Shown in pieces: positions 3,369-28,291 of a DNA stretch of 64,000 nucleotides. The translations under genes were made by a program, and so were the position numbers. The stretch comes from Fodinibius sediminis (GTDB lineage Bacteria; Bacteroidota; Rhodothermia; Balneolales; Balneolaceae). The first letter of the stretch is position 1, and each line of letters starts with the position of its first letter. The stretch spans positions 1 to 64,000 of the forward strand of contig NZ_FXTH01000014.1 of the NCBI RefSeq assembly GCF_900182555.1, in the 5' to 3' direction. Under the pieces are notes generated by a model, which was not told the DNA's origin, made no database searches, and saw nothing but the letters and a program-made list of their open reading frames with translations.

Positions 3369-3534
3369 GATTTTTTTAATCTTTTTTATAACTTTTTCAA
3401 CGGGCACCGGGCGGTGGGGCCTCAAGTGATTACAGCGGCCCTGCCCTCTCCCCTGAACAAGATCCGACAACGCTATCCAGCGGCTGTTAAAATCAGCCTT
3501 TACTTTTACTGAACTTGATTTATTATTACATTAA

Positions 3535-3546
3535 GCAATCGATTGC
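3535..3546. promoter_or_regulatory. Putative LacI-family operator upstream of uxaA
   Basis: The perfect 12-base palindrome GCAATCGATTGC ends 16 bases before the uxaA start codon. The same core occurs upstream of uxaC (24080), and close variants lie before the DUF1080 gene (10382) and between susC and lacI (22702). Shape and a central CG are typical of LacI-family operators. I infer that the LacI protein at 22918-23943 binds it. Confidence 0.65.
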
Positions 3547-3562
3547 ACAAACAAAATAAATC

Positions 3563-5218
3563 ATGGATGACAGGACGACGCTAAAAATTCACCCGGACGA
3601 CAATCTATTGGTAGCTCTCAGCGACCTGGAAGCCGGCCAGGAAATCTCCACTAACGGTCACCCGGTCGTAATCCGGAATGCAATCCCTGCCAAACATAAG
3701 CTGGCTGCTTCTGATTTGAACGAGGGCGACAAGGTATACATGTATGGCTCCGTGGTGGGAACCGTCACGGATGATATCCCCGCCGGCGGACTGTTGACAA
3801 CTGAAAATACCACCCATTCCGTTTCTGATTTTTCATCCCGTACCGGGGAGGCCTCCTGGCAGGCTCCCGATGTAAGCCCCTGGAAAGAGAAGACCTTTAT
3901 GGGATATCACCGGGGTGATGGCCAGGTTGGAACAGCCAACTACTGGCTGGTCATCCCCCTGGTCTTTTGTGAAAACCGCAATGTCAATGTCATTAAAAAT
4001 GCATTTCTGCAAGAACTGGGGTATGCCAATCCCGATATGTATCGGGAATATGTATCTGATTTGACCAGTCTTTATAAAGCGGGCAAACTGGATCAGATTT
4101 ACCGCCAGCATTCCGCCCCGCCCAAAGCCGAGCTTTCCAGGCAGGATCAACTTTTTGATAATGTGGACGGCATAAAATTTTTAACGCATGAAGGTGGTTG
4201 CGGGGGCATCAGGCAGGATTCAGAGGCCCTGTGTGGCCTGCTGGCCGGCTATATCTACAACCCCAACGTGGCCGGGGCCACGGTATTGAGCCTTGGGTGC
4301 CAGAATGCCCAGGTCGACATCCTCGAAGAAAAAATTCAGCAGCTCACCCCGGACCTCAATAAACCGCTGTATATTTTTGAACAGCAGCAAAGCGGAACGG
4401 AGTACGAAATGCTGACTTCTGCTATTCGAAAAACCTTTATCGGGCTGGTGGAAGCCAACAAATGCAAGCGGCAGCCGGCGCCCTTAAGCAAACTCACTGT
4501 CGGCATGGAATGCGGTGGTTCAGATGGCTTTTCCGGCATTTCAGCTAACCCTGCTGTCGGTCACGCCGGGGATCTTGTCACCGCCCTGGGGGGATCGGTG
4601 ATCCTTTCGGAGTTTCCCGAACTGTGCGGCGTCGAGCAAGAGCTGATCAATCGCTCGGTGAATGATGAGATTGCCGAACGGTTCATCGATTTGATGAGTC
4701 GCTATTCGGATGCCGCTGAAGCATCCGGTTCCGGTTTTGACATGAATCCCTCACCGGGCAATATCAAGGACGGCCTGATTACTGACGCCATGAAGTCGGC
4801 CGGGGCCGCCAAGAAAGGAGGCACCTCTCCCGTCAACGCTGTTCTCGATTACACCGAGTATGTACGCGAAGCCGGTCTCAACCTGCTCTGTACCCCGGGC
4901 AATGATGTGGAAAGTACCACGGCCATGGCCGGATCAGGCGCAACTATCATTCTGTTTACCACCGGACTCGGCACGCCGACGGGGAATCCCGTGACTCCAG
5001 TGGTCAAGGTCTCATCCAACAGCACACTTGCCAACCGTATGCCCGATATCATCGACATAGACACCGGACCCATTATTTCCGGCCAAAAATCGATTGAAGA
5101 GATGGGAGCAGAAATTTTGGATTACATCATTGAACTTGCAAGTGGACACATACAAACGAAGGCGATGCAGCTGAACCAGGACGATTTCATTCCCTGGAAA
5201 CGAGGCGTATCCTTATAA
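3563..5218 (+). CDS. uxaA: Altronate dehydratase
   Basis: Dehydrates D-altronate to 2-keto-3-deoxy-D-gluconate, the last step of the galacturonate branch before the shared KDG steps. The protein has 551 residues. The N-terminal SAF-like domain (about 1-100) is followed by the large UxaA/GarD catalytic part, with conserved stretches such as HEGGCGG near 209-215, LSLGCQNAQ near 242-250 and MECGGSDGFSG near 315-325; the Cys and His there are candidate iron ligands in this family. There is no signal peptide, so it is cytoplasmic. The ATG at 3563 follows the LacI-type operator at 3535. The SDR gene starts 28 bases downstream and the two form an operon. A shorter, UxaA-unrelated role such as galactarate dehydratase is possible in this family, but the neighbouring uxaB and uxaC favour altronate. 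Confidence 0.9.
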   Translation: MDDRTTLKIHPDDNLLVALSDLEAGQEISTNGHPVVIRNAIPAKHKLAASDLNEGDKVYMYGSVVGTVTDDIPAGGLLTTENTTHSVSDFSSRTGEASWQAPDVSPWKEKTFMGYHRGDGQVGTANYWLVIPLVFCENRNVNVIKNAFLQELGYANPDMYREYVSDLTSLYKAGKLDQIYRQHSAPPKAELSRQDQLFDNVDGIKFLTHEGGCGGIRQDSEALCGLLAGYIYNPNVAGATVLSLGCQNAQVDILEEKIQQLTPDLNKPLYIFEQQQSGTEYEMLTSAIRKTFIGLVEANKCKRQPAPLSKLTVGMECGGSDGFSGISANPAVGHAGDLVTALGGSVILSEFPELCGVEQELINRSVNDEIAERFIDLMSRYSDAAEASGSGFDMNPSPGNIKDGLITDAMKSAGAAKKGGTSPVNAVLDYTEYVREAGLNLLCTPGNDVESTTAMAGSGATIILFTTGLGTPTGNPVTPVVKVSSNSTLANRMPDIIDIDTGPIISGQKSIEEMGAEILDYIIELASGHIQTKAMQLNQDDFIPWKRGVSL

Positions 5219-5246: not shown

Positions 5247-6062
5247 ATGACCCATTTATTTGACTTATCCGGTAAAACAGCAATTGTAACAGGCGGTAAC
5301 GGCGTATTGGGTGGGGCCATGGCGGAGGGGCTTGCCCAGGCAGGCGCCCGGGTCGCCATCCTCGGTCGTACTAAAGAGACCGTTGACCAACAGGTTGCGG
5401 CAATCAGGGAAGACGGCGGACAGGCACTGGCTCTTTATGCTGATGTATTGAATACTGCTGATCTCAAGGAGGCCAATGAGACCGTGCGCAACGAGTGGGG
5501 CAAAACTGATATTCTCATCAATGCCGCCGGAGGTAATATTGCCGGAGCCATTATCAACCCGGATCAATCCTTCCTGGATCTGGATGACGAGGCATTTAAA
5601 AAAGTTGTGGATCTTAATTTCCACGGAACCTATCGGCCGACCAAGATTTTCAGCGAGTCGATGATTGACTCGAATGAAGGGTGCATCATCAATATTTCAT
5701 CCATGGCCGCACAGAAAATCATAAGTCGCGTTATCGGCTACTCTGCAGCAAAATCCGCCATTGACAATTTCACCAAATCGTTAGCCGTGGAGCTGGCCAA
5801 CAAACATGGCGAGGGCATGCGCGTAAATGCAATTGCTCCGGGCTTTTTCATCGGCAAACAAAATAGGGATCTCCTGCTGAATGAAGACGGATCCCTGACT
5901 GACCGCGGACAGACTATCGTGGATCATACGCCCATGAACCGCTTTGGGGAGCCGGAAGAGCTGGTAGGAACAGCCGTTTGGCTCTGCAGCGATGCTTCCA
6001 GGTTCGTAACGGGAACCGTGATCCCCGTCGACGGTGGATTCAATGCGTTCAGCGGAGTTTAA
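5247..6062 (+). CDS. SDR-family D-mannonate oxidoreductase (fructuronate reductase)
   Basis: Short-chain dehydrogenase of 271 residues. The Rossmann motif TGGNGVLGGAMA (about 14-25), NAAGG (about 94-98), INISSMAA with the catalytic Ser (about 149-156) and YSAAKSA with the Tyr and Lys are all present. SDR enzymes of this type, such as Bacillus subtilis UxuB, reduce D-fructuronate to D-mannonate with NAD(P)H. The role is inferred from the position behind uxaA and from the presence of uxuA at 31663, because the SDR fold alone does not fix the substrate. It would give the window its fructuronate reductase, the long-chain UxaB at 30117 serving tagaturonate. Its stop codon overlaps the stop codon of the convergent uxaE-like gene in a shared TTAA. 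Confidence 0.8.
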   Translation: MTHLFDLSGKTAIVTGGNGVLGGAMAEGLAQAGARVAILGRTKETVDQQVAAIREDGGQALALYADVLNTADLKEANETVRNEWGKTDILINAAGGNIAGAIINPDQSFLDLDDEAFKKVVDLNFHGTYRPTKIFSESMIDSNEGCIINISSMAAQKIISRVIGYSAAKSAIDNFTKSLAVELANKHGEGMRVNAIAPGFFIGKQNRDLLLNEDGSLTDRGQTIVDHTPMNRFGEPEELVGTAVWLCSDASRFVTGTVIPVDGGFNAFSGV

Positions 6063-7306
6063 CGTCCCACAAACAACGGGCGGATGTGACGATTGTAGAG
6101 GTTATGAGTCACCCGCCCCCCTATCACTTTACTGTGCTCCTTCAGCAAGCGGATGAAGCTGTCTCCCTGCTCAGCGGCTATCTTGTATGCACAGTGCATA
6201 AATTGCCGAAGCTGAGCATCGAATAACGGCTTGTCCGGTTCATGTTCAAGCTTTGATACTATGGTCTGCCCACTCCACTCTGCAAAGGTTGGGGGTGCAG
6301 GCAGCCGCTCATGCTTGATATTGATTACCGTCTCATAGGGAGCAGTCAACTCTTCATATCGACCGAAAGCTTCACTGTATATTTTTTTCACCATGGCCAG
6401 TCCTGATGCACCGGCATCAGCCAGCCCGATGAGCTCTTCCAGCCAGGTGGTCCCCGCTGTCTTGAGGTGTATACCGGCATCATGCTTTTTCAAGAGCCTG
6501 TGGATATGCGGATACAGTGAAAACTTATCGCTTCCCGAGTGGATACTTATTTTGAGATCCGCGGGCAAATTAAACCTCTCTTTTGCATATGCAAGTACCA
6601 GCAGGTCCTGTTCAAACTCCTTTACAAAGGTCTCAAGATTTCCCACATAGTCCACTCCTTTGTAAAAATCACCGGTAAATTTGGGTGCAATAGTATTTAC
6701 TGGAATTCCCTTCCGGGCAACCATCTTCAGGATAAAATACAACTCCAGCGGGGTTTGGGGAGTATCCACCTCATCCATCGAAATTTCAAAGACGGCGGTC
6801 CCCTGTTTGTGGCTTCGGATATGCTCAAATATTTCCTGCGCCTGGCGAATGGGCTCCAGGTACTGGTCCGCCCAGTCAGACAGAAAGGCATCCGTAACCT
6901 GGAAATGCTCTGCAATACCGGGGATGGACAATGACCCGGTCACGTTGTCCTGTTCCCTGATAAAATTTTCTTTATCGGCTGCCCTGCCCTCTTCCCCGAT
7001 ATAGTCTGCAACGTCAATGGTAAAGAAATTGGAACAGGGGATATACGGATCCACGATATCTTTTGTAATATGATCCGCATCTACACCGTAAGGGGCTTTC
7101 CAGTGTAATGCAGCCACAGCCTCCTCAGCCTCCCTGCGCACATCGCCGGGTGTTGTACCAATGATTTGATGTTCCCGGTGTGACTTGTTCCAAACCGGAA
7201 TTATTAAACGATCAAACTTATGTTTCGCTTTCTGAATGGATGCAAGCTGTGCTTTGCCCTGTTGTCCAAATCGATCACCAATTCCAAGTGAATAACGTCC
7301 CAGCAT
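6059..7306 (-). CDS. uxaE: Tagaturonate/fructuronate epimerase family protein
   Basis: A 415-residue cytoplasmic protein of the UxaE family, described in Thermotoga as an epimerase that interconverts D-tagaturonate and D-fructuronate. Seen in the sequence: an early KFDRLIIPVWNKSHREH region, GVDADHITKD near residue 74, KFTGDFYKGVDYVG near 210, and SIHSGSDKFSLYPHI near 253, a His/Asp-rich set suited to metal binding. In this window it would join the galacturonate branch (UxaB/UxaA) to the glucuronate branch (SDR/UxuA). It is transcribed toward the SDR gene and the two overlap by four bases. No good copy of the LacI-type operator precedes it; a half site (GCAATC at 7454) is the closest. The family call is from recalled similarity and from context. 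Confidence 0.8.
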   Translation of the reverse strand: MLGRYSLGIGDRFGQQGKAQLASIQKAKHKFDRLIIPVWNKSHREHQIIGTTPGDVRREAEEAVAALHWKAPYGVDADHITKDIVDPYIPCSNFFTIDVADYIGEEGRAADKENFIREQDNVTGSLSIPGIAEHFQVTDAFLSDWADQYLEPIRQAQEIFEHIRSHKQGTAVFEISMDEVDTPQTPLELYFILKMVARKGIPVNTIAPKFTGDFYKGVDYVGNLETFVKEFEQDLLVLAYAKERFNLPADLKISIHSGSDKFSLYPHIHRLLKKHDAGIHLKTAGTTWLEELIGLADAGASGLAMVKKIYSEAFGRYEELTAPYETVINIKHERLPAPPTFAEWSGQTIVSKLEHEPDKPLFDAQLRQFMHCAYKIAAEQGDSFIRLLKEHSKVIGGRVTHNLYNRHIRPLFVGR

Positions 7307-7480: not shown

Positions 7481-7515
7481 AATGGCCACCACCTCCCGGA
7501 GAAGATGATGGCCAT
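7481..7515 (-). terminator. Terminator downstream of the Gfo/Idh/MocA gene
   Basis: On the minus strand the arms AATGGCCA and TGGCCATT enclose a loop and are followed by a long T run (TTTTTTTATTTTTT). It lies about 35 bases after the stop of the oxidoreductase at 7551 and closes the DUF1080-oxidoreductase operon. Confidence 0.8.
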
Positions 7516-7550
7516 TACTACCAACCGGTGGTAACCGATTCAGTGTCTGT

Positions 7551-8876
7551 CTAGAGCTTGGGTTCCCATCCGGGTTCATACTCTCGTCCCCACAGACCCA
7601 TCGCTTCCCGGTCGTAGATACGGCCGGTTGATGGATCTGTCTCCAACGGTTTATTGACCCGGTACGCTATATTAGCCAGGTGGCACATATGAACACTCTT
7701 GGCCCCCTCATCAATAGGAGAATTCTGCTGCTCGGCTGTTCCCCGTATGGTATCCAGGAAGTTGACTACATGCTGGGTCGACATGCTCCCGCCGCCGCCG
7801 AGGGCTGTACCCTGCTCGCTGCCGCCCGAAGACTGCTCACGAACCAGTTCGCCATCGCGGTCGTACAGGCGATACACCGATCGGTTGACGAATACGGATC
7901 CTTCCGTTCCGTATATAATGGTTCCCCGGCCCGCACCGTAGGTATTCAATCCATTGCGACTCTTTCCGTCCCAATTGATTACTTTTCCGTCGGGAAATTC
8001 AAATGTTGCGTACATGGTATCGTACATTGTCCAGCCGTCGTCCGGAAAATGCTGCTTGGCTGCATCCACATAGACCTGCTCGGGGTAGTCAACCTGCAGC
8101 GCCCAGCGGGCGATATCCACCTCGTGCGTGGCGTTGTTGCCCGTTTCTGCGGTACCCCATTTCCAGCCGTACCAGTGCCAGTTGTAATCCCAGGTATTAT
8201 GGTGATACGCCTCTCGCGGGGCCGGTCCCTGGAACAGCTCCCAGTTGAGGTCAGACGGCGGATCCTGGGGCACGCGATTGGTCACTTCTCCCCGGCGATT
8301 GCTGTAGAAAGCCACCGCCTTGTAAACGTCGCCAATGCGTCCGTTATGGATCTCGTCAATAATTTCAGTGGTATGAGCAGCAGACCGCTGCTGGTTGCCC
8401 ATCTGAACCACTTTTCCAAATTTCTCCTGTGCTGCGATCAGCAACTCGCTCTCCTGCGGGTTATGGCTGCAGGGCTTTTCCACGTAGACATGCTTGCCCG
8501 CCTTCATCGCCATCAGCGCTCCGGGTGCATGCCAGTGGTCGGGGGTAGCGTTAAAGATGGCATCCACCTCCGGATCGTCCAGGACTTCCCGGATATCATC
8601 CGTCATCTGGGGGGTGTATGAAAGCTGGTCCTTCAAATCCTCAGCAACTTTATCACGCTGGCTCTTTTTAACATCACAAATATAGGCCAGCTCGGTATTG
8701 TACGGGTCCTCAAGGCTCTCATAGTATGCCCCAACGCGTCGTCCACAGCCCATAAAAGCCACACGAATCCGGTCATTCGCCCCCAGAACTCTTCCATAAC
8801 TTTTCGCTGAAAGCCCCAGGGCAAGTCCACCAGCACCCAGGGTCGTTTTTTTGATAAAATCTCTTCGTGATCCCAT
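7551..8876 (-). CDS. Tat-exported Gfo/Idh/MocA family oxidoreductase
   Basis: NAD(P)-dependent sugar oxidoreductase, 441 residues. The N-terminus SRRDFIKKTTLGAGGLALGL is a twin-arginine signal, so it probably works in the periplasm, unusual for an NAD enzyme unless the cofactor is tightly bound as in other exported members. The Rossmann motif is AFMGCGRRVG (about 40-49), and the family's EKPCSHN motif with the catalytic Lys is near residue 133. It is the second gene after the DUF1080 gene, 28 bases apart. Such pairs are known from 3-keto-glycoside pathways in which this family oxidises or reduces C3 of the sugar while a DUF1080 protein cleaves the bond. The terminator at 7481 ends the unit. 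The substrate is unknown. Confidence 0.87.
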   Translation of the reverse strand: MGSRRDFIKKTTLGAGGLALGLSAKSYGRVLGANDRIRVAFMGCGRRVGAYYESLEDPYNTELAYICDVKKSQRDKVAEDLKDQLSYTPQMTDDIREVLDDPEVDAIFNATPDHWHAPGALMAMKAGKHVYVEKPCSHNPQESELLIAAQEKFGKVVQMGNQQRSAAHTTEIIDEIHNGRIGDVYKAVAFYSNRRGEVTNRVPQDPPSDLNWELFQGPAPREAYHHNTWDYNWHWYGWKWGTAETGNNATHEVDIARWALQVDYPEQVYVDAAKQHFPDDGWTMYDTMYATFEFPDGKVINWDGKSRNGLNTYGAGRGTIIYGTEGSVFVNRSVYRLYDRDGELVREQSSGGSEQGTALGGGGSMSTQHVVNFLDTIRGTAEQQNSPIDEGAKSVHMCHLANIAYRVNKPLETDPSTGRIYDREAMGLWGREYEPGWEPKL

Positions 8877-8904
8877 AATCAGTTTATTTACAGTTAATTA
8901 TTGT

Positions 8905-10281
8905 TTACAGTTCTCGAACTTTAATACTCCGGAAACTTACCTCGTTTCCATGATCCTGCAGCAGGATATGTCCCTGGGGCCAGCGGCCAAATTCTTCCCA
9001 TTTCTGGTATTTGCTATAGGCCACCAGGGCCGCAAACATTTGTGAAAATCGCTCATACTCTACTACTTTCTGGTTATTCATCCAGTGTTCCACATGACCG
9101 TCTTTTGAAATAATGCGTGCTTTGTTCCATCGACCTACACCGTTGAATGGCTTCCCCCTGCCCGGTACGGACAGGTTTTTGGCAGCAATAAGGTCGTAAA
9201 GCGAACCGACCTTTCTGTTTCCGGCCACGCCCTTGTTGGCATCAGGGTGGTTGTCATCATCAAGGATCTGAAATTCCGTGCCAATAGCCGATCCGGCTCC
9301 TTTATTGAGATCAGGATCCACAAAGTACTTAATGCCGCTGTTGGCACCCTCGGTGATCTTGAATTCAAGTTCAAGCTCAAAATCGCCGTATTGTCCTTCA
9401 GTCACAATGTCACCTGGGCCCGTTGCTTCCCCCCCATCGGTCTGCTGGACGGTGAGCACGCCATCACTGATCTCCCAGCCGCTTTCCGGGAAGTGATCGA
9501 GTTTGGCCCCGCGCCAGCCCTCGGAGGTAGCCCCGTCCCAGAGCAGCCGCCAGCCGTGATTTTGTTCCCATTCAGTAAGTTCATTTTTAAGATAACTAAT
9601 CTGCCGCACTTGTGGGTCGGGTGTTTGGCGATGCTCCTGCAGATCTGTAGTACGAATCCTGATATTGCGCCACTTGATCTGCGCACCGACCAGGCTTTCA
9701 TCATGAATAGAGTGCACCTGCAGTCCGATAAATCCTTCAGCTGTCATATCGTCCACCAGCCGGCTGCACTGTACCCCGTTGATCCAGGTATTGATGGAGG
9801 AGCCCACCGCTTCCACCCGGATGGTATTCCACTGGCCAACCTGGAAGGCAGAGCCCGCTTTTTTGTTCACCGAAAGCGGGTAAAGCCATCCGCGTCGTGC
9901 CTCGTCATAAATCCCCCCGCTCCAGGCGCGGCGGGATGGATCCAGTTCCACCTGGTAGCCGTGTACCCGGCCATCACGGTAATCGGGATTGCTGTTGCTG
10001 CGAATCTGTACCCCGCTGTTGATATGCGTGTCCAGATAGACCTCATATTCCAGGATAAAGTTGCCATAATCCTGCTCGGTCGTCAAAAAGGAGTTGCCCG
10101 TATTGGGCACGGCCTCGCCTACAATAGCCCCCTCCTCCACAAAATAATTGGCATCCCCTCCGAGCTGTGTCCACCCATCAAGTGTTTGCCCGTCAAACAG
10201 CTGCTGCCATCCATCCTGCCCCATAAGCACCTGCGGGATTGAAAACAAAAAGCATACGAAGATAATTTTTAAATAGTTCAT
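8905..10281 (-). CDS. Exported DUF1080 (3-keto-glycoside hydrolase family) protein, two domains
   Basis: A 458-residue secreted protein with the signal peptide ending at about VLMGQ (residues 1-22). It has two tandem concanavalin-like DUF1080 domains: one from about 23 to 210, opening with WQQLFDGQTLDGWTQLGG, and one from about 240 to 458, opening with WRLLWDGATSEGW. Members of this family (PF06439) hydrolyse 3-keto-disaccharides. Both halves keep the repeated NSGVQIRSN / NSGIKYFVD element. It starts an operon with the exported oxidoreductase and has a LacI-type operator about 100 bases upstream (10382), which ties it to the uronate genes. The double-domain form may reflect binding to longer glycans. 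Hydrolase activity is inferred from the family. Confidence 0.85.
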   Translation of the reverse strand: MNYLKIIFVCFLFSIPQVLMGQDGWQQLFDGQTLDGWTQLGGDANYFVEEGAIVGEAVPNTGNSFLTTEQDYGNFILEYEVYLDTHINSGVQIRSNSNPDYRDGRVHGYQVELDPSRRAWSGGIYDEARRGWLYPLSVNKKAGSAFQVGQWNTIRVEAVGSSINTWINGVQCSRLVDDMTAEGFIGLQVHSIHDESLVGAQIKWRNIRIRTTDLQEHRQTPDPQVRQISYLKNELTEWEQNHGWRLLWDGATSEGWRGAKLDHFPESGWEISDGVLTVQQTDGGEATGPGDIVTEGQYGDFELELEFKITEGANSGIKYFVDPDLNKGAGSAIGTEFQILDDDNHPDANKGVAGNRKVGSLYDLIAAKNLSVPGRGKPFNGVGRWNKARIISKDGHVEHWMNNQKVVEYERFSQMFAALVAYSKYQKWEEFGRWPQGHILLQDHGNEVSFRSIKVREL

Positions 10282-10381
10282 GGGTTATTTCTTGTGAAAT
10301 TTAGACTAAAATTTATTGTGATAATCTTTATTGGCTGCTGCATAAAATTTTAAAGGCATGAAAACCTTTAAGCCTAAATAT

Positions 10382-10393
10382 GCAAACGATTGC
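10382..10393. promoter_or_regulatory. Putative LacI-family operator upstream of DUF1080 operon
   Basis: GCAAACGATTGC differs from the uxaA and uxaC sites at one position and keeps the central CG and both outer arms. It sits 101 bases before the DUF1080 start on the minus strand and after the 3' end of the gene at 10538. The flanks (TGCA...TGCACAA) are also shared with the uxaA site. Confidence 0.6.
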
Positions 10394-10537
10394 ACAATAT
10401 CAATTCAAATATAAAAAAACGGGCCAAAACCTATACCGAGGAGTCCGGCTCTTGGAAGCAAATTTTAGCAAACATCATCGACAACCATTGCTTGTTTCAC
10501 GGTCTCCCCGGCGGGAAGATCGGCTCCCGGCCTTCTT

Positions 10538-11407
10538 CTACTTGGTCAGGCTTTTGAGGTACTCGATGCTTTCAGGGACACGGCGGACCACGGCATCGCT
10601 CTCATCCTCGATATAAAAATATTCAATATTAGTATCCTGAGCCGCTTTCAACACAGCTGGAAAATCAATCTGTCCGGTACCCAGACGTACATCATATTCG
10701 TGGGGAGCACTTCCGGAAAAATCGCCCTCTACGCCCTTCTTGAGATCCTTCAGGTGCATCAGAATAAAGCGATTGGGGTATTTATTCAACAGATCGACCG
10801 GATCGGCTCCCGGATGCGCCACCCACAGTAAATCCATTTCAAAGCCCACGTACTCCGGATTTGTATGCTGAACCAGGTAGTCAAAAAGGGTGCCATCTTC
10901 ATAAGGCCTGAATTCGTAGCCGTGATTGTGATAGGCAAAACTGAGCCCTTCCTTCTTGAGCGCCATTCCGGCCCGGTTAAAATCTTCAGCTGCCCTCTTA
11001 GCGTCCTCAATACTAAAGGGCGATTCATGGGGAATCCATGCTATGCGCACATAATCGGCCCCCAGGGTATGGGCATCCCGGGCCACCTGGGCGGTATTGT
11101 CTACAAGATCATCATAGCCTACACCGTAGGATGTGCAGATGAGCCCGCGTTCGTCCAGCATTGCGCGCAGCTCCTGTGCGGTCTTTCCAAACAGGCTTGA
11201 AAACTCAATATTCGTTACCCCCATGTCTTTGATAAGATCCAGGGTACCGGCAACATCTTCTTCAAACTGATGCCTGAAACTATAGGAGACCACCCCCGGA
11301 TCCGGTAGCAACTGCTCCTGTGCCTGCGCCTGTACAGACGTAGTGACAGGATTTATTATACTTGTTAAAAGAAAAACACTGATTCCGATAATTATTCGAG
11401 TAACCAT
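10538..11407 (-). CDS. Exported sugar-phosphate isomerase/epimerase-like TIM barrel
   Basis: A 289-residue xylose-isomerase-like TIM-barrel protein (AP endonuclease 2 superfamily). The N-terminus has a hydrophobic signal (about residues 5-27, ending near SVQAQAQ), so it is periplasmic. Seen in order: VTNIEFSSLFG (about 50-60), a FAYHNHGYEF metal-site motif near 155-164, GFEMDLLWVAHPG near 187, and YIEDES near the C-terminus. Such exported barrels occur beside DUF1080 and Gfo/Idh/MocA genes, where some act as epimerases or lyases on 3-keto sugars. It is transcribed in the same direction as its neighbours and is preceded by the acyltransferase gene. The substrate cannot be told from the sequence. 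Confidence 0.8.
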   Translation of the reverse strand: MVTRIIIGISVFLLTSIINPVTTSVQAQAQEQLLPDPGVVSYSFRHQFEEDVAGTLDLIKDMGVTNIEFSSLFGKTAQELRAMLDERGLICTSYGVGYDDLVDNTAQVARDAHTLGADYVRIAWIPHESPFSIEDAKRAAEDFNRAGMALKKEGLSFAYHNHGYEFRPYEDGTLFDYLVQHTNPEYVGFEMDLLWVAHPGADPVDLLNKYPNRFILMHLKDLKKGVEGDFSGSAPHEYDVRLGTGQIDFPAVLKAAQDTNIEYFYIEDESDAVVRRVPESIEYLKSLTK

Positions 11408-11523: not shown

Positions 11524-12729
11524 CTACACTTTGACGAAAATTTTCTTCCGGTACAGGAAATACAAAAGCAGCCAGACCAGCATCATGGCTCCAAAAGCCT
11601 GGAATACTTCATGCCAGGGCTCGGGAAAAATGGAATAAACACCTCCAAACAGCAGGCGTGAAGTTTGCCCAAAATCAATAAACCGATAGCCCAGATAAAT
11701 GGTAAGCGAATTCAGGCCAATGACCTGAAAAAAGAACGCCCATTTCCTGTATTTCAGCACATCGATGATTCCATAGAATGCAAACATAAACAGGAACGCC
11801 ATCCCTCCCGTCAATAAAATGAAAGAGCTTGACCAAAGGTGCTTGTTGATGGGAAAATGTGTACTCCAGAGGAGTCCGATTCCGAGACAGCCGACCCCTG
11901 CCAAAAACAGCAACTGCAGCTTCTTCATCTCATTTCTTCCCGAGCGCAGAATATCTCCGGCAAAAGATCCGAGCATTGTTAAACACAGTGCGGGAAACTG
12001 CGTAATCAGCCCCAATTCATCATAGGTATCCTGGAGCAGTCGGCCGGGCAGCAACTGGCGGTCAATCCAGCCTACCAGGTTGCCTTCAAATGAAAGGTCA
12101 CCCGCCCCATAGCCGGGCACGGGGATGAGAAACAGCGCCGCATAATACAACAGCAAAATTGAACCAACCCATATTAGCCGGCTTCGTCTGGAAAAATTCA
12201 GATACAGGATCATAGTGATGAAGACTGCAATGCCAATTCGACCCAATACACTCACATACCTGATCTGTGAAGGCTCGAAGATAGAGACAGGGGCATTCTT
12301 GTACAAGATCCCCAGGCCAATCAGGATGAGCATGCGCCTGAAACCTTTACGGTACAACATGGATTTGCTCATTCCCACCGACAGGCCCTTGTTCAGCGAA
12401 AACGGCAATGATACGCCAGCAATAAAAAGGAAAAGAGGAAAAATAAAATCGTAAAAGGTAAAACCGTGCCAGGCGGGATGGGTCATCTGTACAGCCAGCC
12501 AGTCGATCCAGCCCCATTCTGTCTTGCCTTCCATCAACCTGATAAAAAGAGCCCCGCCCGAAATCAAAAGCATATCAAAACCGCGTAGCGCGTCAATAGA
12601 AAGGAGTCGCCTGGATTTTTTCACTCCTTCTGATCCATTGGTCCGCTCCGGCACACTGCTGCCAAAAAACAATTTTTGTTCAAATCGTTGCCACTGCTCC
12701 TGAATAACAGAAAAATTGATCGTATCCAT
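11524..12729 (-). CDS. Membrane acyltransferase, HGSNAT/NagX (DUF5009) type
   Basis: A 401-residue integral membrane protein with about ten hydrophobic segments. The cytosolic N-terminus (about 1-40) is followed by the family signature RLLSIDALRGFDML, then HPAWHGFTFYDFIFPLFLFI near residues 85-104 with the conserved His and Asp. These belong to the heparan-alpha-glucosaminide N-acetyltransferase/DUF5009 family, which moves acetyl groups across the membrane onto amino sugars. It lies between two isomerase-like genes on the same strand. In Bacteroidota such genes are frequent in glycan loci and may modify incoming or surface sugars. The acceptor is unknown. Confidence 0.78.
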   Translation of the reverse strand: MDTINFSVIQEQWQRFEQKLFFGSSVPERTNGSEGVKKSRRLLSIDALRGFDMLLISGGALFIRLMEGKTEWGWIDWLAVQMTHPAWHGFTFYDFIFPLFLFIAGVSLPFSLNKGLSVGMSKSMLYRKGFRRMLILIGLGILYKNAPVSIFEPSQIRYVSVLGRIGIAVFITMILYLNFSRRSRLIWVGSILLLYYAALFLIPVPGYGAGDLSFEGNLVGWIDRQLLPGRLLQDTYDELGLITQFPALCLTMLGSFAGDILRSGRNEMKKLQLLFLAGVGCLGIGLLWSTHFPINKHLWSSSFILLTGGMAFLFMFAFYGIIDVLKYRKWAFFFQVIGLNSLTIYLGYRFIDFGQTSRLLFGGVYSIFPEPWHEVFQAFGAMMLVWLLLYFLYRKKIFVKV

Positions 12730-12846: not shown

Positions 12847-13746
12847 TTATCCATTTGCCAGGGCCTCCCGCACTTCTTCCAGAAAACGAGGCACCTTCTC
12901 CATGGGATCCCCACCCAGCGTTTCAATCGGGATATATCCCCTGTAATTCACTTCCTGCAAAATGGCTACAATTTTGTTCAAATCCGTTCTCACGCGCTGA
13001 TCCCGAAATCCCAGGTATTCTTTTATCTGCCATGACACGGCGTGGGGAGCAACCCGTGCAATATCCTCATAAGGGTCTTCCGTCGAAAAGCTGCCCACAT
13101 CCAATATAATACCAAGCCAGTCTGAATCAACCAACCGCAAAATCTCCAGCACATGATCCGCAGTTTTGAGATAGTCGTTGTGATTTTGGACGCCAATCAT
13201 CACGCCGTGGGCCTTGCCACAGGCTACACATTCTTTCAATGCCCCTGCAATCCACCCATTCATTTCATGCCGGCTGTAGCCTTCCGGGATGCCCCGGCCC
13301 GCAAAGACTCTTATCACAGGAGCGCCCAGTTTTGCAGCCACGCGAATCCATTTTTTGACATGGGCGACGTCATCTTTTCTTTTTGCCGGGTCGGGGTCGG
13401 TAAAATTATTACGCACCCCCGTACCACTGATTTCCAGTCCCTCCACGAAGGCCTTTCGTTTTAACTGATAGACATATTCATCATCCGGCACCCCGGGATA
13501 ATTCGGAAAATAGTATCCTGTAGGATCAAAAGCATCAAAATTCAACTTGGCACAGTACATAAGCAGCTCCTCGAGGTCCATATCCCCTTCCTGCAAGTAA
13601 CGGTTAAAAGAATAAGCATTCAAACTAATCTTGATATGCTCGTTTCCTACGCTGCCGCCCCCCCTTTGTTTAAAGCTGGCTTGCCCCGAGAATCCAAATC
13701 CCCCTGCTGCCAGCACTGATGTTTTAACAAAATTTTTCCTATTCAT
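12847..13746 (-). CDS. Tat/Sec-exported sugar isomerase/epimerase-like TIM barrel
   Basis: A 299-residue TIM-barrel protein of the sugar-phosphate isomerase/epimerase group. I chose ATG at 13746 rather than the longer frame to 13824 because it gives a clean export signal, MNRKNFVKTSVLAAGGFGFSG. Seen in the barrel: LNFDAFDPTGYYFP, GTGVRNNF, PVIRVFAGRG, VQNHNDY and LGIILDVGSF, with acidic and His residues at strand ends where the metal normally binds. The end has GYIPIETLGGDPMEKV. It is related to, but clearly different from, the protein at 10538. It lies 111 bases after the FG-GAP lipoprotein gene and may share its transcript. A dehydratase or epimerase role on oxidised sugars is possible; I cannot fix the substrate. 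Confidence 0.8.
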   Translation of the reverse strand: MNRKNFVKTSVLAAGGFGFSGQASFKQRGGGSVGNEHIKISLNAYSFNRYLQEGDMDLEELLMYCAKLNFDAFDPTGYYFPNYPGVPDDEYVYQLKRKAFVEGLEISGTGVRNNFTDPDPAKRKDDVAHVKKWIRVAAKLGAPVIRVFAGRGIPEGYSRHEMNGWIAGALKECVACGKAHGVMIGVQNHNDYLKTADHVLEILRLVDSDWLGIILDVGSFSTEDPYEDIARVAPHAVSWQIKEYLGFRDQRVRTDLNKIVAILQEVNYRGYIPIETLGGDPMEKVPRFLEEVREALANG

Positions 13747-13857
13747 AACAGTAGTATTTAATGCATCGCGATCATTATAAAATATTCCCGGGGCGTTCCC
13801 TGTATGAGGCATCCGGCCATACATCGCCGCACGCTAAGACAGTAAAAATATCCCGGT

Positions 13858-17339: not shown

Positions 17340-19253
17340 TTAATTGTAGCCGGGATTCTGCTGCAGCACCGGCTCACCACCAACGGTACTCAGGTCAATC
17401 TGATTTTGCGGAATGGGATAGTACTCATTTTTTCCAGGTGTAAACTGTCCATCCCGTGTGGGTATACCCAAAGCCGGCCCCTCGTAGCTAAAGAATTCAT
17501 TCAGCTTTTTGTCGGCTTCACCCCAGCGCACCAGATCAAAGAAGCGGTGGCCTTCCATCGCCAGTTCAAGCTTGCGTTCAAAATGAACCGCCTGTTCGGC
17601 GAAGGCCGGATCACTGAATTGAGCTGCCGTATACAGACCGATATTGTAATTCGGGATCTCATACTCCTGCCAGTTGTCCGCATTGTCGGAAGATCCGCCT
17701 CCCAGGAATACGAAGGTTGTGCCAGTATCCTCTCTGATCACCCAGTCGAACTGCCCCACTTCTTCAAGACTGAGCATCTCCTGCTCGCTTGATACCTCTG
17801 CAATGGCCTGGCCGCGATTGAGATCAATGCTGACCCAGCCGTCTTCGTTGGCCGCTCGTTCACGAACCCGGTTTACATATTGTCGGGCTTGTTCCAGAGA
17901 TCCGACTTCAATCTCCGTTTCCGCGGCCAGCAACAGTACGTCGGCAAAACGAATCACATAAGTATTGATAGCGGAGCCCGGCGCCCACGAGTTGAGATCG
18001 GCATACTGTGCCTGCTGCTCAGCCCAGTAGACGTGCTTTTTGGGACCGTAGGGACCAAAGTTTTCAGGTTCACGAGCCCAGGCTGTTCCGGGATAAGGAC
18101 CCCAGTCGTGATACGGCACCCCTCGTCGGCCCACCGTCCAGTCCAGGCGGGGATCCAGAGTACCCTGGTAGGGCTGAAACTGCTCCTGGGGAGATACGCC
18201 CATATCATTGGTCACCATCTCACTGTTATAGGGATCAGGATCACTGACATCAATAATGGGCAGACCGTTGCTGCTTGTCCTATAGGAGTTGACCAGATCC
18301 TGTGTGGGCTGAAAATAGCCGCAGCACGAGAAGGGGCTGGTATCTCCGTAAGGGAAAGCCGGTGACATGCCCAGATTGGCATTGCTTGTGTGTCCCGTGC
18401 CATCGTTGGCAACCATCTCGACGGCAAAAACCGCTTCAGGATTGCCATCTTCACGGGCGGGATTATAATTCTGTCGGAACTCGTCAATCAGGTCGTAGGG
18501 TACGCCCTGGGAGGTAACGCCATTGGCAATGATCTCATCAAACAGAGGCTTTGCATCCCCCCATTTTTCCTGGTAAACATAAGTCTTGGCCAGGTAGGAC
18601 GCTGCTGCCCATTTATTAACGCGAGCCGCATCATTCTGCACTTCAGGAAGGTTCTGGTAGGCAAAATCAAAATCCGCTTCTATATTCGGCCAGATGTCCT
18701 GATCGTTCGGCTGATTTGGATTTTCCGTTTCCTCATCAACCCAGGGCACCTTATTGAACATCTTTTTCAGCTCAAAATAATAGTGTCCCCGCAAGAAGCG
18801 CGCTTCTGCAGCCACTCGCTGCTTATCCGCTTCACTCATGTCTTTCACACGGTTGATCAGATCCAGAACTGCATTTGCACGCCGGATGCCTTCGTAGAGC
18901 GCCGTCCATTTTCCATCGAGATAACTGATGGTGGCCGAAGCATTACCGTTTCCAATCTGGACGTAACCGTTGGTGTTTCCCAGCGACTCGCCCTTGTGCG
19001 CATCGCCCCCGGCGATACTTCCGTAGACCCAGTTGCTCACATCTGTGGCCCCTCTTCGTTCGGAGTTCAGGCTTTGCCCGTCCAAGGCGCCATAGGCCCC
19101 GACAAGCAGGGTTTCAACCCCTTCTTCGTTCGCCAACACGTCCTCACTCAGTGCCCCTTTAGCCGGCACATCGATAATCGAATCGCAGGCATAAAAGAGT
19201 CCACCGATTGCTATCAGACTCGTAATGATTATTGCATTTCTTACACTATTCAT
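17340..19253 (-). CDS. RagB/SusD family outer-membrane nutrient-binding lipoprotein
   Basis: SusD homologue, the surface lid that captures oligosaccharides for the partner SusC channel. The open frame reaches 19283, but ATG at 19253 gives the proper lipoprotein signal MNSVRNAIIITSLIAIGGLF with lipobox FYACD, so I place the start there (637 residues). TPR-like helical pairs cover most of the chain, with the family features RFLRGHYYFELKKMF near 160 and the C-terminal GHRFFDLVRWGEADKKLNEFF and YYPIPQNQIDL. It starts 33 bases after the susC stop, the usual SusCD coupling. Ligand specificity cannot be read from the sequence; context suggests a uronic-acid glycan. Confidence 0.93.
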   Translation of the reverse strand: MNSVRNAIIITSLIAIGGLFYACDSIIDVPAKGALSEDVLANEEGVETLLVGAYGALDGQSLNSERRGATDVSNWVYGSIAGGDAHKGESLGNTNGYVQIGNGNASATISYLDGKWTALYEGIRRANAVLDLINRVKDMSEADKQRVAAEARFLRGHYYFELKKMFNKVPWVDEETENPNQPNDQDIWPNIEADFDFAYQNLPEVQNDAARVNKWAAASYLAKTYVYQEKWGDAKPLFDEIIANGVTSQGVPYDLIDEFRQNYNPAREDGNPEAVFAVEMVANDGTGHTSNANLGMSPAFPYGDTSPFSCCGYFQPTQDLVNSYRTSSNGLPIIDVSDPDPYNSEMVTNDMGVSPQEQFQPYQGTLDPRLDWTVGRRGVPYHDWGPYPGTAWAREPENFGPYGPKKHVYWAEQQAQYADLNSWAPGSAINTYVIRFADVLLLAAETEIEVGSLEQARQYVNRVRERAANEDGWVSIDLNRGQAIAEVSSEQEMLSLEEVGQFDWVIREDTGTTFVFLGGGSSDNADNWQEYEIPNYNIGLYTAAQFSDPAFAEQAVHFERKLELAMEGHRFFDLVRWGEADKKLNEFFSYEGPALGIPTRDGQFTPGKNEYYPIPQNQIDLSTVGGEPVLQQNPGYN

Positions 19254-19286
19254 AATATCATCCTTTTTGTTTATTAAATTCATTTA

Positions 19287-22200
19287 TCAGAATGAGAGGT
19301 TAAGTCCCAACAAAAACTGTCGTGTGCTGGCGTAGGCACCCTCATCAATTCCAAAGTTTGTACTCCCGCCACCGATCTCAGGGTCAATTCCACTGTAGCC
19401 CGTGATGGTGAATAAATTGGAAGCCTGGACATAGAGTCGCAGTCGAGAGGCCGAAATTTTCTCTGTGAGTCGCTCAGGGAAAGTGTACCCCAGCACCAGC
19501 TCCTTCATCCTGAGATAGGAACCGTCTTCCACAAAATAGGAGTTGGGGACGGTGGACGTACTGAATCCGCCACCTGTAGTCTGAAGGGGAAGCGACGCAT
19601 TGGTATTCTCAGGCGTCCATGAATTGTACAGTGCTGCATGGCTCTTCGCCCCTGCAAAGTTGGAGTAAAAGTCGGTCCACCATCTTACCTGGTTCCATAT
19701 ATCATTGCCCTGCGAACCGTAGAGGAACGCATTCAGGTCAAATCGCTTGTAGTTCAGACCGATATCCAGGCCATAGGTGAAGTCCGGATTCGGGTCGCCC
19801 AGGAAGGTCCGGTCGTCTGCAGTGATCTCGCCATCGCCGTTCAGGTCTGCATAGCGGAATGTACCCACTGCGGCATCCGTCTGGAAACTTCCGTCCGGAG
19901 CGCCGGCATTGGCCTGGTCGAGCTCGCTCTGACTGTTGAAAAAGCCTTCAATCTGGTAGCCATAGAAAGAGGAGATCGGCTGACCTACCTCATTGCGGAT
20001 GATATCTGATCCGAACCTCCTGCTGTCCTGACTGAAGTACTCGCTGATCTCGGAAATTTTAACAATTTCGTTTTCATAGGAAGTAAAGGTCAGGCTTACA
20101 TTATACTGCAGATCTTCACTTCCGATGTTGCCCAGCGTGGTGACCATGGCATCAATTCCACGGTTTTTCATATTGGCAACATTAACATAGGGAGGTGTTG
20201 CCGTACCAGCCGTACCAACAAGCCGCGGGTTGAACAGCAGGTCTTTTACATCCTTCCAATAGTATTCGGCTACGATTTCCAGTTTGTCATTAAACAGCGT
20301 GGTTTCAACCCCGATGTTTCCGCTGATGTTTTTCTCCCACTTGGCATCCGGGTTACCGATGCGGCTTTGCTCAAATCCCTGCTGAACATCACTGTTGCTG
20401 GCATTGATGGGATAGAAGGAAGAAGCATTATCCCCGACGTACAGGTTGTACGGGTTGTTGGGATCTACGTTCAGCTGGTTCCCCATGACTCCGTATCCAG
20501 CACGCAGGCGCAGTTCGGAAATCCAGGAAATATCCTGCATAAAAGACTCTTGTGACACCCTCCATCCGACACTTCCCGCGGGGAACATGCCCCACTGGTA
20601 GTTCTCGAACCGGGAGGAGCCATCGCGTCGCAAAGTGGCACTCAGGATGTATTTGCTGTCGTAGTTGTAGTCAATACGCCCGAACACGGACAAGAGCCCA
20701 TCCTCGTACTCATAACTATAGTTGGTTCTGTTTCCGGAACCGGTCGACAGGTTCGTGTAATTGGGATTGAATGAAAAGTAGCCCTGTGAGGAACCGCCGA
20801 AGTTCTGACCCTCGTTGTGGTAGGCTTCCGTTCCCAGCAGTACCTCAAGAGAGTGAACATCATTGAAGTCCTCCTGGAAGGTCAGCGTATTACTCCAGGT
20901 GAAGTTATACCCTTTGGATCCGTTGACGCTAAACTCGTTGACGGAGTTGTTTTCCGCATTTTCATATTCCGGGAAGGTAAACGACTTGCTGGTCACTGAC
21001 GATATCTCTCCGCCAAAATTGGAGCGGAACTGGAACCGGTTGTCGGCAAAATCAACCTCGGCAAACACATTTCCGAACAACCTGCTGTTGTTGGCTTCGT
21101 TATTGCGGGTTCGATACTGCTGAGCTACCGGATTTGAAGCCTGACCCAGCTGCTGACCGGCCGAGCCTGCAAAATTTCCGGCAATATCGTATACCGGTAC
21201 AATCGGCTGCTGCCGGTACGACATACCGATGGCGCTTCCCTCGCTGAGGGCACTGACCTGTGGACTTTCCGAGAAGGAATATGACAGGTTCTCCCCGATC
21301 CGAACATTATTGCTGATTTTGAAATCAGTGTTAACCCGTATGGTAGAACGCCTGTTGAAGGTTCGATCCAGCGTTCCCTGCTGATCGTAATGATTCAGGG
21401 TTAAAATATAGTTACCGGCATCTCCGCCTCCACTGATGGAAAGGTCATGATTCATCGTCATGGCCGGCGAAAATATTTCGTCGTACCAGTCGGTTCCCTG
21501 CTTATTGGCGCGAACGATCTGATTAAACTCATTCAGCTGAGCAGGATCCTTGTATTCAGGTTTCAGGTAGTAGGAATCTTCATTTACATCTCCTTCCATC
21601 TCGCCTGCAGGACGAATATAATCGGGCAGAACCGGCTCTGATCCATTGCCATACTGCGGATCAGGCGCCGGGTTACCGCCGGAATTTCGAATGGCCGCCC
21701 ATTTGAGTTCCGCCATTTCCTGGGGACTCAGGATATTCCAGACGTTGCCCTGCTTGGGAATTGAATAACCGGCATAGCCGCTGTAATTCACCTGCACATC
21801 ACCGCCGCCTTTCTTGGTAGAAATGACAATAACCCCGTTAGCGGCCCGTGCCCCGTAAATAGACGCCGCCGATGCATCCTTCAGTACCTGCATCGTTTCG
21901 ATGTCATTCGGGTTGATGGAATTGATATCCTGGGTAGGCACTCCGTCTACAATGTAAAGGGGTGCATTATTGCCAAAGGTGTTGATTCCGCGTATTCTGA
22001 CATCCGGCTCCTCGCCCGGCTGCCCGGAAGAGGTAACAGAAACGCCCGAAGCCCGTCCCTGCAGCTGCTTGGTCACCTGCCCGGAAGTTCCCTGATTGAG
22101 TCCTTCAACATCAACACTGGCCACCGAACCGGAAATATTCTGCCGCTCCTGGGTGGCATAACCGACCACAACCAACTCTTCACCGGAAAAGGTCTCCGCT

Positions 22201-22553
22201 TCCATCGTTATGTTGATGGAATTTCGCCCGTTGATGGGAACGACCTGTTCCCGATAGCCGATAAATGAAAACCGCAACGTATCAGACTCACTGTCAACAG
22301 TAATTTCATATTCACCGTCGCCGTTGGTCGTGGTACCCGTTGCTGTTCCCATCACAAGGATATTCACCCCGGGTAGCGGAGATCCCGTAGCCCCCTCCGT
22401 TACCACTCCGGAGACTGTGAAGGATCCTGATCCCTGTCCGTATGAAACGCTGCCCACCATCAAAAAACACAGCAATGCCGGTAAAAACATGCGATGCCTG
22501 ATGGCCTTTAACACTACATAGATATGCGATATCTGTATCATTCTACTCACCAT
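19287..22553 (-). CDS. SusC/RagA family TonB-dependent outer-membrane receptor
   Basis: A 1,088-residue TonB-dependent transporter. The export signal (about 1-40, ending near SYGQG) is followed by a carboxypeptidase-regulatory-like domain (about 45-120: GVVTEGATGSPLPGVNILV, GTTTNGDGEYEI), a TonB-box region near ELVVVGYATQ, a plug domain with the SusC signature RGINTFGNNAPLYIVDGVP and YGARAANGVIVISTKKG, and a 22-strand barrel ending in FLLGLNLSF, with the terminal Phe used by the BAM machinery. There is no STN domain, so it is not a direct anti-sigma partner; regulation probably comes from the LacI protein, as an operator-like site lies at 22702. Several upstream Met codons make the exact start uncertain. 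Confidence 0.94.
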   Translation of the reverse strand: MVSRMIQISHIYVVLKAIRHRMFLPALLCFLMVGSVSYGQGSGSFTVSGVVTEGATGSPLPGVNILVMGTATGTTTNGDGEYEITVDSESDTLRFSFIGYREQVVPINGRNSINITMEAETFSGEELVVVGYATQERQNISGSVASVDVEGLNQGTSGQVTKQLQGRASGVSVTSSGQPGEEPDVRIRGINTFGNNAPLYIVDGVPTQDINSINPNDIETMQVLKDASAASIYGARAANGVIVISTKKGGGDVQVNYSGYAGYSIPKQGNVWNILSPQEMAELKWAAIRNSGGNPAPDPQYGNGSEPVLPDYIRPAGEMEGDVNEDSYYLKPEYKDPAQLNEFNQIVRANKQGTDWYDEIFSPAMTMNHDLSISGGGDAGNYILTLNHYDQQGTLDRTFNRRSTIRVNTDFKISNNVRIGENLSYSFSESPQVSALSEGSAIGMSYRQQPIVPVYDIAGNFAGSAGQQLGQASNPVAQQYRTRNNEANNSRLFGNVFAEVDFADNRFQFRSNFGGEISSVTSKSFTFPEYENAENNSVNEFSVNGSKGYNFTWSNTLTFQEDFNDVHSLEVLLGTEAYHNEGQNFGGSSQGYFSFNPNYTNLSTGSGNRTNYSYEYEDGLLSVFGRIDYNYDSKYILSATLRRDGSSRFENYQWGMFPAGSVGWRVSQESFMQDISWISELRLRAGYGVMGNQLNVDPNNPYNLYVGDNASSFYPINASNSDVQQGFEQSRIGNPDAKWEKNISGNIGVETTLFNDKLEIVAEYYWKDVKDLLFNPRLVGTAGTATPPYVNVANMKNRGIDAMVTTLGNIGSEDLQYNVSLTFTSYENEIVKISEISEYFSQDSRRFGSDIIRNEVGQPISSFYGYQIEGFFNSQSELDQANAGAPDGSFQTDAAVGTFRYADLNGDGEITADDRTFLGDPNPDFTYGLDIGLNYKRFDLNAFLYGSQGNDIWNQVRWWTDFYSNFAGAKSHAALYNSWTPENTNASLPLQTTGGGFSTSTVPNSYFVEDGSYLRMKELVLGYTFPERLTEKISASRLRLYVQASNLFTITGYSGIDPEIGGGSTNFGIDEGAYASTRQFLLGLNLSF

Positions 22554-22701
22554 AGTTACCCTTTAAGTTTAAACGAAAATAACCTTCCCTTTAATCAACA
22601 TGCATTCAGTAACAGTTTAACTGAGTCCCTAAACCAAAGATGTGCCAATTAAACCAGTATCCCTTCGTACAAATTAACTAAATCGTGGCATTTCCTTTTG
22701 T

Positions 22702-22713
22702 GCAATCGTTTGT
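22702..22713. promoter_or_regulatory. Putative LacI-family operator between susC and lacI
   Basis: GCAATCGTTTGT is, on the other strand, ACAAACGATTGC, one base different from the site at 10382. It sits in the 364-base divergent region between susC (start 22553) and the LacI gene (start 22918), so it could serve both susC repression and autoregulation. Nothing else in this gap is clear to me apart from T-rich and A-rich tracts. Confidence 0.5.
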
Positions 22714-22917
22714 TCACGCACTACTTTAACCGTTTTCAGGCGGGATTACAAATTTTTTTTAAAATAATTTCAGGAAAAACGAAACTTTTTTGGGTACTGC
22801 CGGAAGCATAGCGGATCTTCTTGCAGGAAAAACCCCTATATCCCTAAAGATTATTTTTATTCCTCGTCAGAAATGATAGTTTTGTTCTTATTTGTCCAAA
22901 TTGGAATGAAAATTTTT

Positions 22918-24091: not shown

Positions 24092-24108
24092 ATCTAAATA
24101 ATATTTTT

Positions 24109-28280: not shown

Positions 28281-28291
28281 CAGGACGGATT

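Follow-up and report, generated by a model that had tools for sequence, protein, structure and literature searches.

Cleavage of glycosides by a non-Koshland mechanism has reportedly been described for the AL, BT and P2B11 enzymes by Nasseri et al. in 2024 (Nature). Here we analyze a gene pair that recalls such systems: an exported Gfo/Idh/MocA oxidoreductase (Gfo) and a protein with two DUF1080 domains, encoded side by side in a uronate locus (3535-32940) of Fodinibius sediminis. The locus lies in a stretch of 64,000 nucleotides (contig NZ_FXTH01000014.1, positions 1 to 64,000), referred to as the window, from an assembly of 4.43 Mb that is 97.9% complete. A preliminary description of the window had proposed that the pair supplies, by a 3-keto route, the uronoside cleavage that the locus otherwise seems to miss.

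In the accessible parts of the papers cited here, several pieces of such a route are described. DUF1080 proteins are a 3-ketotrehalose hydrolase and a proposed 3'-ketolactose hydrolase (PMC9007349), and in planctomycete xanthan use a DUF1080 protein is proposed to hydrolyze the xanthan backbone (PMC5673643). BT2158 is a periplasmic glycoside 3-dehydrogenase (PMC11300592) and BT2156-2159 take part in glucosinolate cleavage (PMC12385236); deletions of BT2157 and BT2158 gave no growth defect on raffinose-family sugars (PMC11501099). A Maribacter polysaccharide utilization locus (PUL) for arabinogalactan, which holds a GH109-type Gfo protein without assigned function and a mannonate dehydratase (PMC11036162), may be a related case. 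The accessible text of PMC10628242 contains nothing on DUF1080 or glucuronides, and no paper on 3-keto-uronate was found in the open-access literature, a scope that most subscription journals fall outside.

We find that the DUF1080-Gfo pair shares the operator of the uronate genes with other units. Together with an adjacent TIM-barrel gene (7551-10281 plus 10538-11407), it forms, on balance probably, a periplasmic 3-keto module of the BT2156-2159/AL kind that frees saturated uronate.

Results

The Gfo gene starts 28 bases past the DUF1080 gene on the same strand, and both open reading frames (ORFs) are intact. With an operator before the first gene and a terminator-like hairpin behind the second (Table 1), the region 7551-10281 looks like a self-contained two-gene unit, as the preliminary description had assumed when it called the pair an operon. 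Its further claim that the pair shares a LacI-type operator with the uronate genes also holds: the palindrome TGCAAWCGWTTGCA precedes the uxaA-type gene, the DUF1080 gene, susC (in a weaker form) and uxaC. The last copy falls inside a mechanically called ORF with a TTG start, and therefore the true start of uxaC probably lies downstream. In the window we count five operator matches against 0.99 expected, a number reached in 0 of 100 shuffles; the fifth, at 18398, falls inside susD. Genome-wide there are five exact copies of the 12-base core, three being the intergenic sites in this locus and two lying inside mechanically called ORFs. A chance origin of the operator was rejected on the basis of the window shuffles, the genome-wide cores and the comparison of linked with unlinked loci given below. 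The LacI-family regulator encoded at 22873 is the candidate to bind these operators. On contig C2, a site with one mismatch is located between another SusC gene and another LacI gene (L219).

Both PF06439 domains of the DUF1080 protein (8914-9555 and 9652-10212) score above the Pfam cut-off, and its N terminus is a hydrophobic, signal-like stretch as judged by eye. Its full-length relative in the PDB is 4jqt (E 1e-161). With 23 PF06439 matches in the genome, DUF1080 as such is common here. Just to the right of the window (contig C14, 70778-73553) an ORF of 1335 amino acids (aa) with three DUF1080 domains adjoins another DUF1080 ORF.

The Gfo protein combines the NAD-binding fold PF01408 (Pfam) with a twin-arginine signal (NCBIfam TAT_signal_seq). 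Its AlphaFold model (pLDDT 87.7) is best matched by 8tdf (Z 38.8, 28% identity) and 8tdh (Z 38.4), both glucoside-3-dehydrogenases, the former being Alistipes AL3. The match to 8tdi, the glucuronide-3-dehydrogenase of P2B11, is on a level with many other Gfo enzymes (Z 34.8, 17% identity), and 8tdi is absent among the best 60 of 83 sequence matches (E up to 10). Against the NCBIfam equivalog BT_2158_fam the protein scores 144.5 bits, under the curated cut-off of 750, and is therefore a distant relative rather than an equivalog. Lys134 and His251, which we take to be the catalytic residues, are invariant across the 80 Gfo rows of the tree described below.

The 289-aa TIM-barrel protein encoded upstream of the pair has 8tct as its top match by sequence (phmmer E 4.4e-28), and its fold matches (model pLDDT 68.5) are led by 8tct, 8tcd, 8tcr and 8bvk, that is, by the 3-keto-beta-glucopyranoside 1,2-lyases of B. 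thetaiotaomicron and Alistipes and by AtOGE. From these matches the protein appears to belong with the DUF1080-Gfo pair. With the Gfo, DUF1080 and TIM-barrel matches, each of the three parts of the known oxidation-elimination-hydration route has a homologue within a span of 3.9 kb.

Linkage to uronate genes in related genomes

We surveyed 392 genomes of the same phylum (Bacteroidota in the broad sense, as judged from relatives and tree placement). At a threshold of E 1e-80 or better, a double-domain DUF1080 is present in 75 genomes at 78 places, and UxaC is encoded in 71 of the 75. UxaC-bearing genomes account for 74 of these places, and the distance to uxaC is at most 20 kb at 11 of them, at most 30 kb at 12 and at most 50 kb at 14; six families contain such a neighborhood. 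The chance figure at 20 kb is about 0.72, assuming genomes of 4.4 Mb and even placement, uncorrected for contig breaks. Observing 11 against about 0.7 corresponds to a Poisson probability of about 3e-10 under even, independent placement, a value that is weakened by kinship. As a control, AraA is near at 0 of 37 places (RhaA, present in only 2 genomes, was unusable as a control). Other DUF1080 domains are within 20 kb of uxaC in 0 of 105 cases among the matches listed, which come from 20 of 25 genomes; the selection of the 25 took in all genomes that have UxaC within about 20 kb, so that a comparison of 11/26 with 0/105 leans towards linkage, while the figure of 11/74 does not. As the sole cause, a tendency of DUF1080 to cluster with sugar genes in general was rejected by the other-DUF1080 and AraA controls.

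A set of named relatives was added, with 80 of 108 loci taken in and linkage read only inside each locus stretch; the named and genome-sample sets may contain the same species twice. Genes of relatives are mechanical ORFs labeled by BLAST against the proteins of the window, with Pfam applied to chosen ones only. In total, 107 of 158 loci have a Gfo match of more than 100 bits within 3 kb of DUF1080; the two genes share a strand in 99 loci, 66 of these with gaps of less than 50 bases between the matches. For the Gfo tree 27 of the 107 were excluded because their length fell outside 400-540 or their identity was below 35%, that of the linked locus L032 among them. The remaining 80 rows split into clade I (43 rows including that of the window, support 100/100) and its sister clade II (37 rows). 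A Tat-like pattern is found in 43/43 and 35/37 of these, respectively, and Arg46, Arg340, Arg307 and Lys274 are specific to clade I. Linkage to UxaC/UxuA is seen for 16/43 in clade I against 3/37 in clade II, the 16 consisting of 11 seen within the locus stretch and 5 by genome coordinates (21 when five judged from partial evidence are counted). At the thresholds used, no sequence signature distinguishes the partners of clade I among the double-domain proteins. The preliminary description had proposed a survey of co-occurrence with uxa/uxu genes; linkage to uronate genes recurs, in a subset.

For the operator survey we searched up to 450 bp before DUF1080 with at most 2 mismatches, and 155 of the 158 loci had at least 200 bases upstream. 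An operator of the type seen in the window precedes DUF1080 in 8/30 linked and 0/125 unlinked loci, where about 0.3 and 1.5 matches, respectively, are expected from a single-base shuffle. Among the 30 linked loci, five were assigned by judgement (L127, L130, L063, L065 and L066), and for five others linkage is known from genome coordinates only (L119-L121, L149 and L164, with L120 at 48 kb and L121 at 38 kb). Of the eight sites, three come from Algoriphagus loci assigned by judgement, and all five rows of Algoriphagus type that have a site (L063-L066 and L176) are closely related. In Galbibacter locus L040 a similar site is found before uxaC instead of DUF1080.

Gene order varies among the lineages of linked loci. 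The Algoriphagus type reads DUF1080-Gfo-SusC-SusD-LacI-UxaC-SDR-UxuA, and L040 reads LacI-SusC-SusD-DUF1080-Gfo-cupin-SDR-UxuA-UxaC-KdgK-Eda-DctP-DctQ up to the end of the available stretch; L041 has the same order with an extra KduI and SDR. The barest case is Galbibacter L038 (LacI-SusC-SusD-DUF1080-Gfo-UxaC), an island flanked by housekeeping genes: a transporter and a methyltransferase on the left (named after the L040 genes that share their BLAST clusters) and a TPR protein, gyrase A and a Clp ATPase on the right. G162 has SDR-UxuA-DctPQM-DUF1080-UxaC-LacI without Gfo, and G300 has LacI-Gfo-DUF1080-SDR-UxaC with a Gfo of clade II. By BLAST label or Pfam, no glycoside hydrolase (GH) or polysaccharide lyase (PL) is present within clusters L038, L040, G194, G076 and L064, the last three being of the Algoriphagus type.

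Some further genes were seen near such pairs. In two Prolixibacteraceae loci (L039 11410-12261 and L061 11351-12193) a TIM-barrel protein of a 3lmz-like subfamily, with a signal-like start, is encoded between the double DUF1080 and Gfo. One congener (L120 7375-9111, G286) has a GMC oxidoreductase gene immediately ahead of its DUF1080 gene, which recalls glycoside 3-oxidation of the FAD type. In L164 (1346-4873, G381) a fusion of sulfatase and alpha-L-rhamnosidase (Pfam) lies near the DUF1080-Gfo pair and uxaC.

Gene content of the locus

According to Pfam and NCBIfam, the genes between 3535 and 32940 cover the glucuronate as well as the galacturonate branch and include SusCD (Table 1). No GH or PL domain turned up when the 20 main ORFs of this range were scanned with Pfam. 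By these scans the locus has the SusC/SusD pair of a classical PUL and none of the GH or PL genes, of which a classical PUL has at least one. This agrees with the preliminary description, which had noted SusCD and full uronate catabolism without a recognizable lyase or hydrolase. Directly 3' of susD, on the same strand, lies an 1118-aa FG-GAP/ASPIC-UnbV ORF. Two overlapping ORFs beyond the locus (33440-34597 and 34522-35049, minus strand) match BNR_2 and BNR_assoc_N and resemble a single sialidase-like gene that a frameshift or assembly error has divided. Left of the locus, at the contig start, are a large serine recombinase (1624-3285, plus strand) and an ORF without Pfam match (242-1396, minus strand); this region is possibly a mobile element.

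Table 1. Operator copies, hairpin and genes of the uronate locus, in window coordinates
Feature	Position	Strand	Remarks
Operator copy before uxaA-type gene	3534..3547		1 mismatch
UxaA-type altronate/galactarate dehydratase family protein	3563..5218	+	PF20629, PF04295 (Pfam)
SDR, D-mannonate oxidoreductase subfamily	5247..6062	+	NF006132, 376 bits against cut-off of 281
UxaE tagaturonate epimerase	6059..7306	-	PF16257
Terminator-like hairpin	7481..7516	-	16 pairs plus T tract; after Gfo gene, closing the unit
Gfo/Idh/MocA oxidoreductase, predicted Tat-exported, 441 aa	7551..8876	-	proposed glycoside 3-dehydrogenase (Pfam, NCBIfam)
Double-domain DUF1080 protein, 458 aa	8905..10281	-	proposed 3-keto-glycoside hydrolase/hydratase; PF06439 twice, 291 bits
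LacI-type operator TGCAAACGATTGCA	10381..10394		exact copy, about 100 bp before DUF1080 start
TIM-barrel protein, 289 aa, signal-like N terminus	10538..11407	-	3-keto-glycoside 1,2-lyase relative (phmmer, fold search)
DUF5009/acyltransferase-like protein	11524..12729	-	weak Pfam matches, below cut-offs
Second TIM-barrel (AP_endonuc_2) protein	12847..13824	-	Pfam
FG-GAP/ASPIC-UnbV repeat protein, 1118 aa	13858..17214	-	Pfam
SusD	17340..19283	-	Pfam
SusC	19287..22553	-	Pfam
Operator copy before susC	22701..22714		2 mismatches
LacI-family regulator	22873..23943	+	Pfam
UxaC uronate isomerase	24076..25509	+	Pfam, NCBIfam
Operator copy before uxaC	24079..24092		1 mismatch
PfkB kinase, at KDG kinase position	25531..26565	+	Pfam
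KDPG aldolase	26617..27291	+	Pfam, NCBIfam
TRAP transporter DctP, DctQ, DctM	27294..30084	+	Pfam
Tagaturonate reductase (UxaB)	30117..31565	+	Pfam, NCBIfam
Mannonate dehydratase (UxuA)	31663..32853	+	Pfam, NCBIfam

Discussion

The chemistry that we propose for the module consists of oxidation, elimination, hydration and reduction in the periplasm. The Tat-exported Gfo would oxidize C3 of the non-reducing glycosyl residue, after which the 3-keto glycoside would be split by the TIM-barrel lyase, by the double-domain DUF1080 or by both, a task that the two proteins might divide between them. Gfo with its bound cofactor would then regenerate the free sugar by reducing the 3-keto product. The oxidized residue would be a saturated uronate, most likely glucuronate but possibly galacturonate; it could enter via the TRAP transporter and be broken down by the Uxa/Uxu enzymes together with Eda.

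Several observations weigh against this proposal. The nearest solved relatives of the Gfo protein are glucoside enzymes and not the glucuronide enzyme 8tdi (17% identity); no Gfo residue was tied to carboxylate binding, the four specific to clade I being no more than candidates. As many as 63 of the 74 double-domain places fall outside the 20 kb range around uxaC, which restricts the link to a subset, and 22 of the 30 linked loci, that of G227 among them, yielded no operator before DUF1080. In the linked loci G162 and L017 no clade I Gfo was found beside DUF1080, and L041 encodes KduI, so that unsaturated uronates are handled there too. The lack of GH genes is itself less telling in an assembly of 97.9% completeness, and the genome-wide search, without match at E 1e-8 for GH28, GH88/105, GH115 and KduI, took in only these GH families and left out GH67, GH2, GH79 and the PL families. 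Finally, three of three congeners with the pair hold GH28 in the locus. In G389 the GH28 gene directly precedes DUF1080 and separates it from the operator; the locus of G227 has GH28, GH115 and GH3, and that of G286 has GH28, GH43, an esterase and a sulfatase. In addition to these three, G198 has GH2 and GH3 nearby.

Given GH28 in the loci of the congeners, the absence of GH genes is a trait of this strain and not of the locus type in the genus, and it may reflect loss. In the genus the pair seems, from gene content, to work beside enzymes of the polygalacturonase or alpha-glucuronidase type. These hydrolases still tie the pair to uronate-rich glycans, but they make it less likely that cleavage depends on the pair alone. 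We also considered unsaturated uronates, as supplied by lyases: KduI and GH88/105 were not found in the own genome nor in the three congeners, whereas GH88/105 occurs in the linked genomes G108, G203, G162, G194, G381 and G300, and KduI in G108, G381, G300 and locus L041. L038 strengthens the proposed uronate-freeing module while the KduI of L041 and the absent operators weaken it, and overall the odds stay the same.

It might be argued that the same 3-keto chemistry acts on neutral sugars of the same polymer (residues of glucose, galactose, rhamnose or xylose), with co-regulation arising since the polymer also contains uronate or since the freed aglycone is a uronate. The solved relatives 8tdf and 8tdh act on glucosides, the characterized DUF1080 and partner enzymes are tied to trehalose, lactose and glucosinolates in the accessible literature, and the pectin- and xylan-type GHs in sister loci make mixed polymers likely. 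The linkage, however, is to uxaC and not to AraA (0/37 places; RhaA occurs in only 2 genomes), and it is also seen in clusters of uronate genes alone, such as L038. We regard action on neutral residues as rather unlikely, yet it deserves more weight than the idea that no joint route exists, with DUF1080 as a binding module or ordinary hydrolase and Gfo acting alone, for example on free sugars. A Thermogutta DUF1080 protein has been described as endo-xanthanase/lichenase (PMC9007349), the proposed hydrolysis of the xanthan backbone (PMC5673643) points the same way, and 51 of the 158 loci lack a Gfo match above 100 bits within 3 kb, some of them due to contig ends. Against this, the frequent same-strand arrangement with short gaps (99 and 66 loci) and the lyase homologue adjoining the pair make independent neighbors very improbable.

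Still more remote is a role in modifying free uronates in the periplasm (epimerization or oxidation before uptake) without cutting a bond. The Gfo and TIM-barrel families do include inositol and sugar epimerase routes, but SusCD, which imports oligosaccharides, is present in the locus. Moreover, the accessible literature connects PF06439 with the cleavage of glycosides.

Returning to the uronate-freeing 3-keto module, the claim that it supplies the missing uronoside cleavage stands in part. It is favored by a 3-keto-type module that shares the operator, by linkage to uxaC in six families, by several clusters free of GH and PL genes and by a genome that yielded no match at E 1e-8 to GH28, GH88/105, GH115 or KduI; it is tempered by the congener loci with GH28 (in G227 also GH115), and the uronate nature of the oxidized residue is what we infer. 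The idea is nevertheless better supported than a reading of the window could show. A further step would be that the double-domain DUF1080 and the Tat-exported Gfo clade form a dedicated uronoside cleaver, defining a class of PUL without glycosidases or lyases of the carbohydrate-active enzyme (CAZyme) families, with L038 as its barest form, in which saturated uronates are freed only via the 3-keto route and then passed to UxaC/UxuA. We put this forward tentatively, as a possibility that we would not yet bet on. Similar pairs lie beside sugar-acid genes in many related bacteria and may be how those sugars are freed. If this is true, loci with SusCD and uronate catabolism that have no glycosidase or lyase are not incomplete, as they use a non-CAZyme route missed by standard annotation. 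The double-domain DUF1080 family would gain a testable substrate class, and the 3-keto route would be extended to bacteria living on acidic glycans.

Comparison with known systems

The closest counterparts are BT2156-BT2159 of B. thetaiotaomicron and the Alistipes AL system, which likewise combine a Gfo 3-dehydrogenase, DUF1080 and a TIM-barrel 3-keto-glycoside lyase in one locus. By homology all these features are present here (Gfo with the Lys/His residues, a PF06439 protein and a TIM-barrel lyase homologue). The locus differs in its double-domain DUF1080, in a Gfo far below the BT_2158_fam cut-off (144 versus 750 bits) and in carrying the operator of uronate genes. With the P2B11 enzyme 8tdi the Gfo protein shares the general Gfo fold (Z 34.8, as with many other Gfo enzymes), but at 17% identity and judging by the best 60 of 83 sequence matches it does not appear to be a close orthologue. 

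According to the accessible part of PMC9007349, the Caulobacter LacABC-DUF1080 route for lactose also proceeds by periplasmic 3-oxidation followed by proposed DUF1080 cleavage; it differs in having a membrane-bound dehydrogenase, lactose as substrate and a single-domain DUF1080. The double-domain architecture is shared with 4jqt, a full-length relative over both domains, which the PDB record names merely a putative glycosyl hydrolase.

The preliminary description had regarded the combination as not seen described. This does not hold for the chemistry, as 3-keto cleavage is known from BT2156-2159 (in the accessible papers) and the PDB title of 8tdi, glucuronide-3-dehydrogenase, means that 3-oxidation of glucuronides has already been described. 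While the chemistry itself is known, what is new here is a module of double-domain DUF1080 and clade I Gfo set in a uronate regulon.

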